Source: Phycisphaerales bacterium
GTDB taxonomy: Bacteria > Planctomycetota > Phycisphaerae > Phycisphaerales > SM1A02
DNA: 64,000 nucleotides
Direction of reading: 5' to 3'
Assembly (NCBI GenBank): GCA_029245245.1
Contig: JAQWPT010000021.1
Span: 124,001 to 188,000, forward strand
Part shown: in pieces, positions 10,604 to 21,508 of the stretch
Layout of the letters: each line of letters starts with the position of its first letter
How positions within the stretch are numbered: position 1 is the stretch's first letter
Translations under genes and position numbers: made by a program
The notes under the pieces: generated by a model
Database searches by the model: none
Told to the model about the DNA's origin: nothing
What the model saw: only the letters and a program-made list of their open reading frames with translations

Positions 10604-11281
10604 CTATTGTCCGAGGGACCAGTCCTCGGGAACCGGTGGAGGCCCTCCCGATGGAGTCGGGGGCAGGCTGAGCTCGGCGTCGTCACGGCGATTCATGCCG
10701 ACGATGAACATTTCCCGGGACACGCTTCGCGATGCAGTCGGACGCATGGTCCGCACCTCGCCGAAGCACTCGTGGACCCGCTGGACGAGTTCCTGGAAGT
10801 TGGTCCCCTCAAACGCCTTCATCACAAGGTGTCCATTGTTGCGGAGCAGGGTGCCGCATCGCTGCAGGACGAGTTCACAGAGTGACATGGAGCGATGGTG
10901 GTCCGTGTCGCGATGACCGGTCGTGTTCGGTGCCATGTCCGAGAGCACCACGTCGAACCGTTGCGTGGCGGATCGATTGGCCGCTGCAAGCAGGACGGCA
11001 TCGTCGATGTCTCCCAGATCGCCGGTCAGCAGGTGGATGTTGTGCCCGGGCAGGGGGGTGATGTCGAGCAGATCGACACCGACGACTACACCGTCATCGC
11101 CGATCTGCTGGGCGGCGTACTGCACCCAGGAGCCCGGGGCGCAGCCACAATCGAGAACCGCATCTCCTGGCGAGAGCAACGAACGCTTCTGATCGATTTC
11201 TCGCAGCTTGTAGATGGCTCTGGAGCGATAGCCCTCGCGCTTGGCTTCCTTGAACCAGTGATCATGCAGTTCACGTGCCAT
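10604..11281 (-). CDS. rlmE: 23S rRNA (uridine-2'-O)-methyltransferase RlmE/FtsJ
   Basis: 225 residues. SAM-binding motif CGCAPGSWVQ at 45-54 and the K-D-K-E catalytic set of 2'-O-methyltransferases: Lys25, Asp115 (LSDMAPN), Lys155 (VMKAFEG) and Glu190 (SREMF). RlmE methylates U2552 in the A-loop of 23S rRNA late in large subunit maturation. A proline-rich tail of about 20 residues after the catalytic domain is an addition to the usual ~209-residue protein. It follows the DUF4097-like gene by 18 bases on the same strand, so the two probably form one transcript. Confidence 0.95.
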   Translation of the reverse strand: MARELHDHWFKEAKREGYRSRAIYKLREIDQKRSLLSPGDAVLDCGCAPGSWVQYAAQQIGDDGVVVGVDLLDITPLPGHNIHLLTGDLGDIDDAVLLAAANRSATQRFDVVLSDMAPNTTGHRDTDHHRSMSLCELVLQRCGTLLRNNGHLVMKAFEGTNFQELVQRVHECFGEVRTMRPTASRSVSREMFIVGMNRRDDAELSLPPTPSGGPPPVPEDWSLGQ

Positions 11282-11299
11282 GGTGTTCCGCCCCTGTTC

Positions 11300-12082: not shown

Positions 12083-12169
12083 CGAGGTGGATTGTAGCCA
12101 CCACCGCGGGCCCGGGTTCCCGGAGCGGGGATCGCCGGGTGGCGATGATCCGGGGTAGACTGTCCTCGT

Positions 12170-12253
12170 TCGCTCGGGGCACGGACGGATCGCCCGTTCG
12201 CTGAGATGTACCCGTAGCACCTGATCCGGTTCGTACCGGCGGAGGGAAGGCGA
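12170..12253 (+). promoter_or_regulatory. TPP riboswitch (THI element) upstream of thiC
   Basis: The conserved THI-box segments occur in order: CGGGGCACGG, GCTGAGATGTACCC, GCACCTGATCCGG and GTACCGGCGGAGGGAA. The closing P1 helix can form between TCGCT (12170-12174) and GGCGA (12249-12253). The aptamer binds thiamine pyrophosphate and lies 46 bases before thiC, the classical target. Confidence 0.95.
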
Positions 12254-12260
12254 CCGCCCG

Positions 12261-12295
12261 CTCCTTTTCGTCCGATCTTGCTCGAGGAGGAGCAA
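12261..12295 (+). promoter_or_regulatory. Likely translational expression platform of the thiC riboswitch
   Basis: TTGCTC (12278-12283) and GAGCAA (12290-12295) form a six-base stem with GAGGAG, part of the thiC ribosome binding site, in the loop. Just upstream CTCCT (12261-12265) is complementary to AGGAG at 12285-12289 and could act as an anti-Shine-Dalgarno. There is no run of T expected of a transcription terminator, so control at translation initiation is more likely, as in most Gram-negatives. Confidence 0.5.
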
Positions 12296-12299
12296 CTCA

Positions 12300-14219
12300 A
12301 TGATCAAGCAGGATGGAACCCCGGACCACGCACACGATCCCGCGGACATCGATTTCGTCCAAGCGGACGATCAGGCCTTTCTCGACGCCCTGCCACTGCA
12401 TGGTGCCGTCAATCCATCAACCGATCAGCAGGGAACGTCGCCGGGGTGTTTTTCAAACGCCCCCGACATCGGTGGGCCCCGGATGTTCTCCAGCCCCGAT
12501 ACCCCGGGAATGCCTGCACCCTCTCCGCTGACGGCCTGGGATTTTCTTCCTCCGGGTTGGACCATCGAGGATCATGCCAGCGGCTGCAGCGGGCACAACC
12601 AGGGCTCGGACCGCCTGATTCGTGGCATCGCCCCGGCCGGCTTCGAACCGGTGACCCAGTTGGAGCACGCCCGGCTGGGCGTCATCACCGACGTCATGCG
12701 CCGTGTCGCCCAGCGTGAGACGCATCTGTCACCCGAGCAGGTTCGAGACGAGGTTGCCGCGGGTCGCCTGATCATTCCCGCCAACATCCGCCACCTCGAG
12801 TACAAGCTGGATCCCATGGCGATCGGTCGGGCCTCCCTCACCAAGATCAACGCCAACATGGGCGCCTCGCCCGTGAGCTCGGGCACCGACGAAGAGGTCG
12901 AGAAGCTCAACTGGGCTGAACGCTGGGGTGCCGACACGGTCATGGACCTGTCCACCGGCGGCGATCTGGACCAGTGCCGCGAAGCGATTCTCCACAACTC
13001 CAGGGTGCCCATCGGAACCGTTCCCATCTACTCGATGATCATCGGCCGGAAACTGGAGGAACTCGATACCGACGTCATCCTCGAAACGCTTGAGCACCAG
13101 GCCCAGCAGGGTGTCGATTACTTCACGATCCATGCCGGCCTGCTTCGATCCCACATTCCATACGTCAAGAGCCGGCTCATCGGCATCGTGTCTCGTGGTG
13201 GTTCCCTGCTTGCCAAGTGGATGCTGACGCACAATCGTGAAAATCCGATGTACGAACTCTGGGACGACATCTGCGAAATCATGCGCAGATTCGACGTGAG
13301 TTTCTCCATCGGAGACGGGCTTCGCCCCGGCGGTCTTGCGGATGCTACGGACCGTGCACAGCTTGCCGAGCTCGAGGTCATCGGGGAGTTGACCGAGCGG
13401 GCGTGGATGCACGGGGTGCAGGTCATGGTCGAAGGTCCGGGGCATGTTCCGCTGGATCAGAACGAATACAACATGAAGTTGCAGCGACGCAAGTGCCACG
13501 GGGCGCCGTTCTACGTGCTCGGGCCTCTCGTGACGGACATCTTCCCCGGGTACGACCACATCACGTCCTGCATCGGAGCGACCAGTGCAGGATGGCATGG
13601 CGCATCGATGCTCTGCTACGTCACTCCCAAGGAACATCTCGGACTTCCCAAGCGTGACGACGTCAAGCAGGGATGCATCGCCTACAAGATTGCCGCCCAT
13701 GCCGCGGACATCGCACTGGGAATCCCGGGATCCCGGGATCAGGATGATGAACTGACGAAAGCCCGTGCGGCATTGAACTGGGAGCGGCACTTCGAACTCA
13801 GTTTCGATCCCGATACGGCTCGAGCTCTGCATGACGAAGACCTGGATGTCGACACGGATTTCTGCGCGATGTGCGGGCATGACTGGTGCAGTGTCCGCAT
13901 CAGCCGGGAAATCCAGGAGATCGCCTCGGGCAAGGACGAGGCGTATGCATGGGAGTCGCCGCGCATCTCCGAGGCACTCAGCGATGAGCAGAAGGCCATC
14001 CTGGAACAGCGAGGCGTCCTGGATCCCGCGGAAATACATCGACTTGCCACGAAGACCAAGCGGGCCATGAAGGGCAAGACCGGATCGAAGGCGAGTTGCC
14101 ACAGCGACGCGACCGACGACACCAGTGCTCGTACGATGCAGGAAGAGCAGGTCGAGAAATTCGTAGAACTCAATACCGCCCCGGCGCACAATATTTCGAA
14201 GCATGACCCGATCATCTGA
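12300..14219 (+). CDS. thiC: Phosphomethylpyrimidine (HMP-P) synthase
   Basis: 639 residues. Radical SAM enzyme that rearranges aminoimidazole ribotide into HMP-P, the pyrimidine half of thiamine. Its unusual C-terminal cluster motif C-x2-C-x4-C is seen as CAMCGHDWC at about residues 522-530. Core motifs include [44 protein letters not shown] and DIFPGYDHI. The N-terminal ~170 residues contain the ThiC-associated region. The start at 12300 has GAGGAGGAG in front and sits under a TPP riboswitch. The end overlaps the next gene by 17 bases. The purine intermediate AIR that ThiC uses comes from the pathway served by purL, purQ and purE in this window. Confidence 0.98.
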
Positions 14220-18418: not shown

Positions 18419-19141
18419 TCAGAAATCTCCATGCCACGTGGAAGAGATGAAATCGAAGATTACGGACTGGTCAGCCGGCTTCATGGACCGTTCCGGGCAG
18501 GTTGAGATCCCGATGTCGACCCAGGTTGAATAGATCTCCGTTTCAATGGGTCGGACCGTGAAATTCCCACTTCGCCCCAGCAGGTGGTGCATGAAGTCGA
18601 TTTCCGGGTGCGTCACGTTCACCTGCCGGGGATTGATCCCGTTCTTCACGTGGGAACGCAGCACGTGAGCCGCGACCAGGAGCAACTGCTCGCGTGACCG
18701 TGTCTGGATCGAGACGGCACCACTGGGAAGCACTTCCACCGAGGAGACCACGGGCAGCTCGCTGGCAAGGGGGCTGGCACCCTCGACGCAGACCTCCGTC
18801 AGGGTCTTGATGTCGGTGGCCTCCAGTGGACCTTCCGCCCGGATGGCCCATGTGACGGCCGTCGTCTCACCAAGGCTCAGGAGTTCTCTGTCCGAGTGAA
18901 TTCCGCGCACTTGCAGTGACGAGGATCCAGGTGTGTTCTGGATCAGCAGTGTGCTGGGTCGATTGGAATCGCAGGTGGTCGCAAGGATGGAGAGCACCTC
19001 CTGCAGTTCAAGGCCGACGAGCCGCAGCTCCCAGCCATGCTCGATGGAGGACAGCTGGCACGAGATCGGAGCCAGCATGCCGGCCAGGCTGGTCGGGCTG
19101 CTCTGCGCGCCGTACGAGATCGATTGGTGAGGTGAGTTCAT
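18419..19141 (-). CDS. Hypothetical protein, 240 residues
   Basis: I do not recognise this protein. The start at 19141 is supported by AAGGAGG nine bases upstream; the longer open frame upstream lacks protein character. It has no signal peptide or membrane segment and a mixed composition with Ser, Leu and Glu. Regions such as LSSIEHGWELRLVGLELQEVLSI and VEVLPSGAVSIQTRSREQLLLVAAHVLRS look like regular globular secondary structure. It lies between a long leader with a terminator-like hairpin and the atoE transporter gene (196 bases further). A small ORF upstream ends with its stop overlapping this start. The unusual leader suggests conditional expression; the role cannot be told from sequence. 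Confidence 0.65.
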   Translation of the reverse strand: MNSPHQSISYGAQSSPTSLAGMLAPISCQLSSIEHGWELRLVGLELQEVLSILATTCDSNRPSTLLIQNTPGSSSLQVRGIHSDRELLSLGETTAVTWAIRAEGPLEATDIKTLTEVCVEGASPLASELPVVSSVEVLPSGAVSIQTRSREQLLLVAAHVLRSHVKNGINPRQVNVTHPEIDFMHHLLGRSGNFTVRPIETEIYSTWVDIGISTCPERSMKPADQSVIFDFISSTWHGDF

Positions 19142-19254
19142 GGCCCATCGCCTCCTTCGTGTTCGGGAGGCATGCACGGCGTGGATGCTGCAAGTACGAC
19201 GCGAATGCGGTTGAAGGAGCAATGGGTTCGGTGGTTCAGGCAGTTCATCATCAT
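19138..19254 (-). CDS. Possible 38-residue small ORF translationally coupled to the 240-residue gene
   Basis: Starting at the ATG at 19254 (or 19251/19248, three ATGs in a row) the frame runs 38 codons and stops at TGA 19140-19138, overlapping the ATG of the next gene as ATGA. AAAGGA lies four to ten bases before these ATGs. The peptide (start MMMNCLNHRTHC) is rich in Cys, His, Arg and Pro and resembles nothing I know. The ribosome binding site and the coupling overlap are the only support; a chance frame is possible. Confidence 0.3.
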   Translation of the reverse strand: MMMNCLNHRTHCSFNRIRVVLAASTPCMPPEHEGGDGP

Positions 19255-19300
19255 GGGTTCCTTTCTGGAAATGCGGATCTGGTCCGCGCGAAATGACAAA

Positions 19301-19324
19301 CGCCCCGTTCAGTGGAACGGGGCG
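19301..19324 (-). terminator. Terminator-like hairpin in the leader of the 240-residue gene
   Basis: CGCCCCGTTC (19301-19310) and GAACGGGGCG (19315-19324) are perfect ten-base arms around AGTG. Read on the minus strand the stem is followed by TTTGTCATTTC, a moderately T-rich tail. It stands 160 bases before the gene start, so it could be an attenuator or the end of a short upstream transcript. Confidence 0.45.
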
Positions 19325-19726
19325 TGGGAGATCGTTCAGTGGCGTGTTGCAGTCGCCTAGGGTCTCCAGCTCCGTCCCGTGCCTGTATTGGCAAAACAAC
19401 GGGAACGCATCCAGGTCGTGATGGCCTTGACATGGCGCAGCCAGACCGGAATCGGGCGGGTTGCGGCAAGGGCGACCGGGCGCCGCTGGGAGCGGACACC
19501 TTGGTGGGCATGTCGAGATGGCTGGTGACGCATCATGAGTATTCAATCGTGCAACCAAAGAAGAACACTGTCAATGTGAATTGCAGAATATGGTTGGCAT
19601 TGGCGGGTTTCACGGCTGCAGAGTTGTGGCAGGGTACGCAGATGGCCTCTGGGCAGGGCCCGAGCAGAACGTGGTTCCAATGGGGATGGAATCAACCGGG
19701 ATTTCAGGGGTTCTGCCCTGCACGCT
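19325..19726. other. Intergenic region between divergent genes; no convincing gene
   Basis: About 400 bases between the leader hairpin and the ABC1 kinase frame (585 counting from the 240-residue gene start). I see no tRNA or known riboswitch. A-T-rich sequence at 19530-19600 includes TTGACA on the minus strand near 19571-19576 but no well-spaced -10, so a promoter for the minus-strand gene there is only possible. Short frames on both strands are Pro/Arg-rich and not protein-like. On the plus strand TATGAT at 19726-19731 resembles a -10 box for the kinase gene. Confidence 0.5.
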
Positions 19727-21508
19727 ATGATGGTGCCCCCCGGCGGGGATCCTCCCCCTGACCCCCGGGCGCTCCGGCAGCCCTCCATCGGTGTGGGTTC
19801 AGCAGGCAGAGTGGGGACGGCGGGACGGGAGCTGGTCATCAGTTTCATTTCAACGATCAAGCACGCGGGTCGCTACAGCGAACTCATGAAGGTCGCCGTC
19901 AAGTACGGCTTTCGGGAGTTCTTCTATGAGACCAAACTTCATCTCCTGCATTCCGATGGGCACAAGGCTCTGAAGGAAGGGCAGGAAGGAGATGCTGTCA
20001 ATGGGATGTCACGGGCCGCCAGGCTTCGGCTGGCGATGGAGGAACTGGGTCCGACCTTCATCAAGCTCGGCCAGATCCTCAGTACGCGACCGGATATCCT
20101 CCCTCAGGACTGGATCGAGGAGTTTCAGAAACTCCAGAGCGATGTTCCTGCAGTGGAATGGGAGAAGATCGAGGCGGAGTTGATCGCCGAAATGGGCGAT
20201 CTCGATGCAAAGTTCCAGTCGATCGAACACACCCCGATGGCGGCGGCTTCAATGGCCCAGGCCCACCGGGCCATCCGCAAGGATGGACAGAAAATCGTAC
20301 TGAAGATCCTTCGACCCGGGATCGAAAAGATCATCAACGGGGACATGGAGATCCTGCAGGCGGTTGCCTCCTGGCTGGCCAAGCACCACGACGATCTTCC
20401 GTTCGATCCGGTTTCCGTGGTGGAGGAGTTTTCCAGTTCGATCAAGAATGAAATGGACTTCATGCATGAAGGTCGAAACACCGACATGTTCCGCGATGGC
20501 CTCGAGGAAGGCGAGCAGGCCTGGTTCCCCACCGTCTACTGGGATCTGACCACACGCCGCGTCCTGGCCCTGGAAGAAATTACCGGGGTGCTTCTCTCCC
20601 ACTGGCGAGAGTCCGGTCTCTCCAAGGAACAGAGGGAGCGACTGGTCCGCATCGGTGCCTACACGGTGCTTCGTCAGACCCTGGAAATCGGGTTCTTCCA
20701 TGCCGATCCCCATCCCGGGAACCTGTTCCTGATGGAGGATGGTCGCCTCTGCTTCATCGACTGCGGCATGGCTGGCCGTGTGGATGATGAAACGACGTCC
20801 CAGTTGGCGATGCTGATCTACGGGGTGGCCAAGTCCGACATCGACAAGGTCTACGAGGCGTTCATGACCCTGGGCAACGTGGATGAGATGGAAGTCGACG
20901 ACAAGCAGATCCGTCGCGATCTCCAGGATTTCATGGACCAGTACACGAATGTGGGCTTCGACAAGATCAACATGTCCGCGGTCCTCCGGGCCTTCACCGA
21001 GGGGTTGCGCAAGCACAAGATCAAGTGCCCCAGTGACATCGTGATGCTCATCAAGGCGCTGACGACCATCGAGGGAGTCGGCGAGGACCTGGATCCGGAC
21101 TTCGACCTGATCAGTTTCGCCAAGCCACATGTGGAGAAACTGGTGAAGCGGCAGTACAGCCTGCCGGCGATCCGAAGGCGGCTGAAGAAGAATGCCAGTT
21201 CATGGTTCCAGTTCGCAGAGAACCTCCCGCGGAATCTGAATCACCTGTCGGATCGACTTGGCCGCAACGAGTTGGCCATGCGAATGGATGTGAAGGGAAT
21301 CGACCAGCTCAACAGCACGGTCAACCATGCGAGCAAGCAGATGTCCTATTCACTGCTGGTCGCATCGATGATCCTCGCATCGGCCGTGCTCGTCCTGGCC
21401 GAGGGACGTGGTGGCGGCATCCTCGGATGGTTCGGCGGCTTCGGCTTCCTGCTGTCCTTCCTGCTCGCCCTGTTCATCCTCTTCGAGAATCTCATTCGAA
21501 AGCGATGA
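19727..21508 (+). CDS. ABC1/UbiB (AarF) family atypical protein kinase-like protein
   Basis: Up to 593 residues. Family hallmarks: the KxGQ motif in FIKLGQILSTRPD (about 112-124), the Ala-rich loop PMAAASMAQ (about 168-176), catalytic loop HADPHPGN (325-332) and IDCGM in place of DFG. Two hydrophobic segments end the protein (about 550-590), the UbiB membrane anchor. UbiB proteins bind ATP and support coenzyme Q synthesis or lipid transport; the exact activity is unsettled. The start is uncertain: the ATG at 19727 overlaps a -10-like box and has no ribosome binding site, and the first ~35 residues are not family-like; GTG codons at 19793 or 19811 are alternatives. Confidence 0.88.
   Translation: MMVPPGGDPPPDPRALRQPSIGVGSAGRVGTAGRELVISFISTIKHAGRYSELMKVAVKYGFREFFYETKLHLLHSDGHKALKEGQEGDAVNGMSRAARLRLAMEELGPTFIKLGQILSTRPDILPQDWIEEFQKLQSDVPAVEWEKIEAELIAEMGDLDAKFQSIEHTPMAAASMAQAHRAIRKDGQKIVLKILRPGIEKIINGDMEILQAVASWLAKHHDDLPFDPVSVVEEFSSSIKNEMDFMHEGRNTDMFRDGLEEGEQAWFPTVYWDLTTRRVLALEEITGVLLSHWRESGLSKEQRERLVRIGAYTVLRQTLEIGFFHADPHPGNLFLMEDGRLCFIDCGMAGRVDDETTSQLAMLIYGVAKSDIDKVYEAFMTLGNVDEMEVDDKQIRRDLQDFMDQYTNVGFDKINMSAVLRAFTEGLRKHKIKCPSDIVMLIKALTTIEGVGEDLDPDFDLISFAKPHVEKLVKRQYSLPAIRRRLKKNASSWFQFAENLPRNLNHLSDRLGRNELAMRMDVKGIDQLNSTVNHASKQMSYSLLVASMILASAVLVLAEGRGGGILGWFGGFGFLLSFLLALFILFENLIRKR

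Follow-up and report, generated by a model that had tools for sequence, protein, structure and literature searches.

Transcription attenuators governed by a leader peptide are familiar from the trp and his operons, and SecM and TnaC are regulatory nascent peptides, the former with the motif RAGP. Work by Canestrari in 2020 reportedly described leaderless short ORFs with polycysteine tracts in mycobacteria that act through attenuation. The ilvBNC uORF of Corynebacterium is a leader-peptide attenuator, and the ilvB-II uORF codes for 15-17 residues (PMC10272879). Taxonomically, the accessible portion of a 2010 survey records leader-peptide systems as known in Proteobacteria and Actinobacteria, adds Firmicutes, and leaves planctomycetes unmentioned (PMC2965389), and our search of the open-access literature recovered no leader-peptide attenuator described in planctomycetes.

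Here, we describe a planctomycete leader that we consider likely, from comparison of sequences, to be a ribosome-mediated transcription attenuator. With the trp, his, and ilvBNC attenuators it shares an upstream ORF, here ORF1, a mutually exclusive antiterminator and intrinsic terminator, both predicted, and an ORF end near the switching segments. The leader would work like these classical systems, differing in its longer leader ORF (mostly 40-80 codons, unlike the short ilvB-II uORF; PMC10272879), in its near-leaderless start beside a predicted promoter, and in its orphan target, a gene without known function. Unlike classical amino-acid attenuators, most genera also carry no clear run of regulatory codons in ORF1.

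The locus and its gene family

The window (a stretch of 64,000 nucleotides from contig JAQWPT010000021.1) belongs to a Phycisphaerales genome of 2.69 Mb in 38 contigs, for which two same-genus relatives, G001 and G002, were compared. The parts of the leader lie on the minus strand (Table 1), with a divergent ubiB-like (ABC1) gene upstream, running from 19727 on the plus strand, and a short-chain fatty acid transporter gene (18252-16795) downstream of the 240-codon gene. The initial annotation had reported a hairpin with a T-rich tail about 160 bases before this gene, and a small 38-codon ORF, here ORF2, with AAAGGA ahead of its start codons and a TGA overlapping the gene's ATG; all of these are present, the hairpin having 11 pairs and ending 158 nt before the gene's ATG, with a tail that is T-rich to a moderate degree only. 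ORF1 lies outside the span of that annotation.

Table 1. Features of the leader and its gene in the window (positions are those of the window)
Feature	Position	Strand	Details	Basis or status
Predicted leader promoter	19546..19574	-	TTGACA 19574-19569, 17-nt spacer, CACGAT 19551-19546; 9 nt 5' of ORF1 ATG	9/12 matches
ORF1, leader ORF, 59 codons	19357..19536	-	stop TAG 19359-19357; ends 31 nt 5' of terminator hairpin	frame kept in relatives
Cys codon in ORF1	19396..19398	-	21 nt 5' of antiterminator segment	candidate stall codon
Putative antiterminator segment GGACGG	19372..19377	-	complement of terminator 5' arm	support across loci
Outer helix around small hairpin	19367-19363 with 19331-19327	-	GGAGA with TCTCC	predicted fold
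Small hairpin GGCG/CGCC	19341..19357	-	first base is last base of ORF1 stop codon	predicted fold
Predicted intrinsic terminator hairpin	19300..19325	-	11 pairs, 8 G-C, loop 4; T-rich tail 19299-19290, 5 T in 8	fold, covariation
ORF2, 38 codons	19138..19254	-	ATGATGATG from 19254; AAAGGA 19264-19259; TGA 19140-19138 overlaps gene ATG (ATGA at 19141-19138)	probable coupling ORF
Gene, 240 codons	18419..19141	-	ATG 19141-19139; AAGGAGG 19157-19151 inside ORF2	

The gene family, searched with a profile from 22 members, was present in 72 of 181 genomes and in 28 of the 45 genera of one Phycisphaerales family, and in a class-wide sample in 16 of 397 genomes, all 16 inside that same family; among the genomes sampled, it is restricted to one planctomycete family. 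The neighbours of the gene vary from genus to genus. Neither the window gene nor ORF1 nor ORF2 had a match in Pfam, NCBIfam, or PHROGs, and single weak family matches for the 22 aligned gene members were set aside as chance, as was the one match (E 0.054) of the gene profile in a PDB sequence search. With a model of the whole gene product, Foldseek gave a best E of 0.16 and TM-scores below 0.5 among the matches listed, and VIA-align a best Z of 5.8, graded middling by the tool; we make no claim of fold. Scanned with Rfam at gathering scores, the whole window yielded only tRNA and TPP matches, both elsewhere than the leader. The TPP riboswitch, at 12165-12265 (+) (RF00059, 55.3 bits, gathering score 54.3), lies directly 5' of a thiC-like gene at 12300.

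Recurrence of the leader and its predicted terminator

Within the window genus, the stretch of the region best kept in G001 by DNA search was not the gene; it was 19494-19302 (79% identical), covering most of ORF1. Both G001 and G002 keep the hairpin, with matched changes, and the frame and stop of ORF1, as well as the frame of ORF2 and its ATGA overlap, with the sequence of ORF2 hardly kept.

Across genera, hairpins with a stem of at least 8 and a T-rich tail have a density per kb and strand of 0.086 in the window and 0.18 in 20 loci of relatives, these loci including the elements themselves. Such a hairpin stood at most 260 nt upstream of 38 of 70 homologous genes, vs 0.046 expected for each. 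When upstream regions were folded for 71 of the 72 genes (G035, at a contig end, was left unfolded), 54 showed a T-rich stretch preceded by a hairpin of less than -11 kcal/mol, mostly of the type GCCCY...RGGGC. We kept 50 of these 54 loci, from 19 genera in 17 groups (group g61+ pools three genera), and left out G185, whose leader runs off its contig, and G182, G184, and G109, whose hairpins were irregular by eye. Loss of the hairpin from relatives that keep the gene had been named at the outset as the finding that would speak against a regulatory unit; the hairpin is kept in 19 genera, yet nine of the 28 gene-bearing genera have no such terminator upstream, and in these we infer that the control was replaced or lost, or the element missed in our search. 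In a 40-locus alignment of the terminator helix, 93.7% of cells were paired vs 82.9% in shuffles and 48 cells were changed on both sides vs 18.9, with no excess over shuffles in the number of pairs bearing such changes (5 of 9) or in pair types.

An ATG ORF ending 25-45 nt before the hairpin was found at all 50 loci, vs 2-3 of 50 in shifted windows. In these loci the order ORF1, G-rich segment, ORF1 stop, terminator, gene recurs, and the same leader is found at loci whose DNA cannot be aligned; comparison supports the recurring order and the ORF1 frame. The placement of the ORF end, taken alone, would fit the terminator of a small gene too, as a stop codon some 30 nt before a terminator is normal for any gene end. 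This leads to the foremost alternative, i.e., that ORF1 is an independent small-protein gene, the hairpin its terminator, and that expression of the 240-codon gene comes from read-through or from a separate promoter. Selection on ORF1 at the peptide level agrees with such a reading: its dN/dS was 0.54 within the window genus and 0.31-0.63 in nine of ten groups (the tenth, in which two genera are paired, had 0.97), with 0.05-0.29 for the gene. Synonymous differences were fewer in ORF1 than in the gene in all ten groups (32 loci for both measures), which together indicates that the peptide is selected, less than the gene product is, and that the RNA is constrained too.

Also agreeable to an independent ORF1 are two genomes that retain ORF1 and the hairpin and lack the gene. 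In G100 (L210, G100:C38:5000-18000, record 11190-11283, minus), ORF1 and terminator are followed by the fatty acid transporter, with an antiterminator match of 7 nt, found by eye and partly to the loop. In G150 (L209, G150:C2:195000-206000, record 199852-199945, plus), an ORF1-like ORF and terminator, with a 5-nt match only, are backed by a long opposite-strand ORF. Such gene-less leaders may mean that ORF1 acts as a peptide, or both may be remnants.

These came from a scan of 181 genomes with an RNA model, R1, built from the same 40 study loci, so R1 matches at those loci are not an independent test. At E<=0.05, 141 genomes had a match, many of the weak ones being ordinary terminators at gene ends; the 15 places inspected included four leaders (G100, G150, G035, and G170). 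Several matches in g53 and G116 were the ends of genes finishing ..GLVGRRRR*, which we take to be PEP-CTERM-like. Separately, L195, L196, L197, and L200, which lie in different genomes (G081, G075, G077, and G116), have near-identical gene ends with the same terminator behind each, the ..GLVGRRRR* ending being seen in three of the four. Among 30 genomes without the gene, a homologue of the fatty acid transporter was present in 11 and of ubiB in 7, and an R1 scan upstream of these 18 loci found the leader at that of G100 only. An ORF1 profile run over the 181 genomes gave clear matches in no genome beyond the three of the window genus, the next-best match (E 1.8e-4) containing an internal stop; elsewhere the leader was located via the gene.

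The complementary segment and the readings of the leader

Towards its end, ORF1 contains a G-rich segment that complements the 5' arm of the terminator, e.g., (segment/arm) GGACGGGGC/GCCCCGTCC in G006, GACAGGGC/GCCCTGTC in G005 and G021, GGCGGGGC/GCCCCGCC in G098, AGCAGGGC/GCCCTGCT in G026, CGAACAGGG/CCCTGTTCG in G011, and GGCGGAGC/GCTCCGCC in G174. In 41 of 50 loci the best complement of the arm lay 38-54 nt 5' of the hairpin, vs 18 of 128 in a control set of other terminator-like hairpins, taken from the window and the relatives' loci (this interval, as well as that of -64..-36, was chosen after the per-locus complementarity was seen). Against dinucleotide shuffles, the first genomes of the 17 groups gave a Fisher p of 1.8e-8; taken singly, 18 of 50 loci reached p<0.05 vs 2 of 128 control hairpins, and 32 of the 50 fell short individually, the window's own match having p 0.58. 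A set of 18 representatives gave 9 of 18, and since these were hand-picked the figure of 18 of 50 is used instead. When arms were exchanged among the 17 groups, the fit dropped from 314 to 262 +- 12, and 8 of 20000 exchanges equalled the real pairing.

The putative antiterminator helix also covaries. In alignment A6 (40 of 50 loci), 75.8% of cells were paired vs 69.8 in shuffles, and 33 cells were changed on both sides vs 15.7 in shuffles and at most 17 in slid versions. Two slid versions, as well as 33 of 500 shuffles, reached its 6 of 9 pairs with two-sided changes, and 108 of 500 shuffles reached its 14 pair types; kinship of loci within genera inflates such cell counts, the group-exchange test being less affected. 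The fit was poor in g15, g59, g8, and G083, and in g22 the segment lay nearer the hairpin. In this comparison the two helices are mutually exclusive, each claiming the terminator 5' arm, and each covaries.

Against an independent ORF1 speaks that ordinary hairpins mostly lack a complement at this place (present in 18 of 128, vs 41 of 50 loci); the segment moreover covaries with the terminator arm across genera, and the synonymous sites of ORF1 are constrained. We consider that reading unlikely.

In 35 of 44 loci the antiterminator segment ends 11-16 nt 5' of the ORF1 stop, a geometry that fits its predicted masking by a ribosome at the end of ORF1, as judged from the general size of a ribosome footprint. 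A further small stem lies between antiterminator and terminator; in 40 of 44 loci it takes in all or part of the ORF1 stop codon, e.g., as TGAGC/GCTCA (g5), TGAGT/ACTCA (many g18 loci), CTGATC/GATCAG (part of g35), and, from the last base of the TAG, GGCG/CGCC in the window genus. With segment and arm held fixed, the spacer folded better than shuffles in all 15 groups (44 loci; mean z -2.24, t test over groups p 1.1e-5). The two states of the window's leader are alike in strength, at -19.5 vs -20.5 kcal/mol. A sigma-70-like promoter was predicted just 5' of the ORF1 start in 25 of 50 loci vs 16 of 1000 random positions, a comparison in which real loci were allowed several start codons and random ones one position each; as the predicted promoter adjoins the ORF1 start, it would place the 5' end of the transcript at the ATG or close to it.

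From this layout we infer promoter activity, termination, read-through, the direction of the response, and coupling. Transcription would start at or beside the ORF1 ATG, with a ribosome trailing RNA polymerase through ORF1. A ribosome that reaches the ORF1 stop would occlude the small hairpin at the stop codon together with the 3' portion of the antiterminator segment; with the antiterminator blocked, the terminator would fold and transcription would stop before the gene (off). Were the ribosome stalled about ten codons earlier, or absent, the G-rich segment would pair with the terminator 5' arm and the gene would be read (on). In the window genome the gene would then be translated through coupling to ORF2.

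A switch driven instead by a ligand, a tRNA, or an RNA-binding protein, whether riboswitch-like or as autoregulation by the gene product, would make ORF1 incidental. Covarying alternative helices would be expected there as well, and the loops and stem sequence are partly conserved across genera. Yet Rfam covariance models gave zero matches in 18900-19760, even at E up to 5, and the RNA outside the switching segments is highly variable, as opposed to the ORF stop, whose position is constant in 50 of 50 loci. We consider a ligand-driven switch quite improbable.

ORF2 has another place in the attenuator proposed here. The layout of stop-start coupling, a subject treated in PMC6728339, is present in the window, with the ATGA overlap and a Shine-Dalgarno sequence (AAGGAGG) inside ORF2, and ORF2 probably couples translation to the gene. 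Of the 21 loci in which hairpin and gene are more than 100 nt apart, 13 have an ORF2 that is 30 codons or longer and terminates at the gene's ATG, vs 2.1 expected from shuffles preserving ATGA. Its sequence is poorly conserved except for the part carrying the gene's Shine-Dalgarno sequence, and it is present in only some genera and absent from many; spacers of 3-69 nt between hairpin and gene are too short to accommodate it. In G133 (L103), the gene starts where its relatives' ORF2 starts, 40 nt after the hairpin, and ORF2 was either lost here or gained in the relatives. ORF2 and the gene of G020 (L046) are preceded by a long hairpin, GC-rich but lacking a T-tail, and by an ORF that ends in RRAPGRTEPAAD*; the RAPG in that ending resembles a known arrest motif.

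That ORF2 is itself the leader peptide whose translation senses the signal, as the initial annotation had it, is hardly credible: its frame and overlap are kept within the genus and it exceeds chance in long-spacer loci, but it lies downstream of the terminator, where its translation cannot decide termination, it cannot fit into short-spacer loci, and little of its sequence is preserved. What comparison supports in that proposal is the attenuation layout, as terminator arms and antiterminator co-vary and a leader ORF is kept, with the correction that this ORF is ORF1 and not the 38-codon one. Its suggestion of a new regulatory unit has gained support from comparison across loci, and the alignment of relatives that it called for found co-varying arms and an ORF2 frame kept in G001 and G002, with ORF2 not general even among long-spacer loci.

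A candidate signal and what the leader would mean

For the attenuator, the signal was sought in the codons of ORF1 (47 loci, 16 groups). Cys occurred in codons -11 to -20 before the ORF1 stop in 11.8 of 16 groups, where nucleotide shuffles gave 4.4 +- 1.3 and 0 of 150 reached the observed figure, this interval having been chosen after Cys positions were seen; in codons -1 to -10 it occurred in 2.7 groups vs 4.3 expected, and in codons -21 to -30 in 6.5 vs 4.6. Codons -11 to -20 showed an excess of Met, Ile, and Phe too, and a deficit of Glu, Gly, Pro, and Ser, which points to a hydrophobic, Cys-bearing piece of the nascent chain. A Cys codon lay 15-33 nt 5' of the antiterminator in 32 of 47 loci, and a ribosome stalled at that distance with the Cys codon in its A site would about clear the antiterminator. 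Since Cys is enriched before the segment, cysteine supply is a candidate signal for the leader. The ORF1 of G005 and G177 has zero Cys, and there is none at the critical place in G178, G011, G023, G187, G155, and 8 of 12 g18 loci, of which four carry Trp there.

The mycobacterial polycysteine ORFs, as reported, are nearest in start type and amino acid, sharing a leaderless short ORF, attenuation, and cysteine. They differ in that ORF1 has no run of Cys codons but mostly just one or two where the decision would fall, and several loci have none there. With SecM and TnaC, ORF1 shares a basic, partly hydrophobic nascent chain and a decision near its end, and in some genera it ends RTGP or RAGP; unlike in those systems, G033, G025, and G022 translate this stretch of RNA in a different frame. 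As the segment is read in different frames among genera, what stays constant is the RNA and not that peptide motif. An arrest motif RAGP like that of SecM was accordingly rejected for ORF1, being not universal, and nothing rests on a motif R[AV][IV]AxxP seen by eye in several genera, the strict pattern of which occurs in 14 of 47 loci.

Tentatively, and as an idea that we would not expect to hold in full, the leader could be a cysteine (sulphur) sensor of one planctomycete family. Its near-leaderless ORF1 peptide, mostly of 40-80 residues, would combine a hydrophobic region with one or two Cys codons placed 15-33 nt 5' of the antiterminator; a ribosome awaiting Cys-tRNA, or self-arrested, would stand just clear of the segment and switch the gene on, and the peptide would be functional as well, hence outliving the gene in two genomes.

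If the attenuator reading is true, ribosome-controlled attenuation at an intrinsic terminator operates in Planctomycetota, which would require close coupling of transcription and translation there. A single stretch of sequence would serve as coding leader, antiterminator, and stop-codon hairpin, with RNA and peptide constraints falling on the same bases. The leader would also offer a first handle on an orphan gene family, as whatever stalls the ribosome in ORF1 would tell when the gene is needed.
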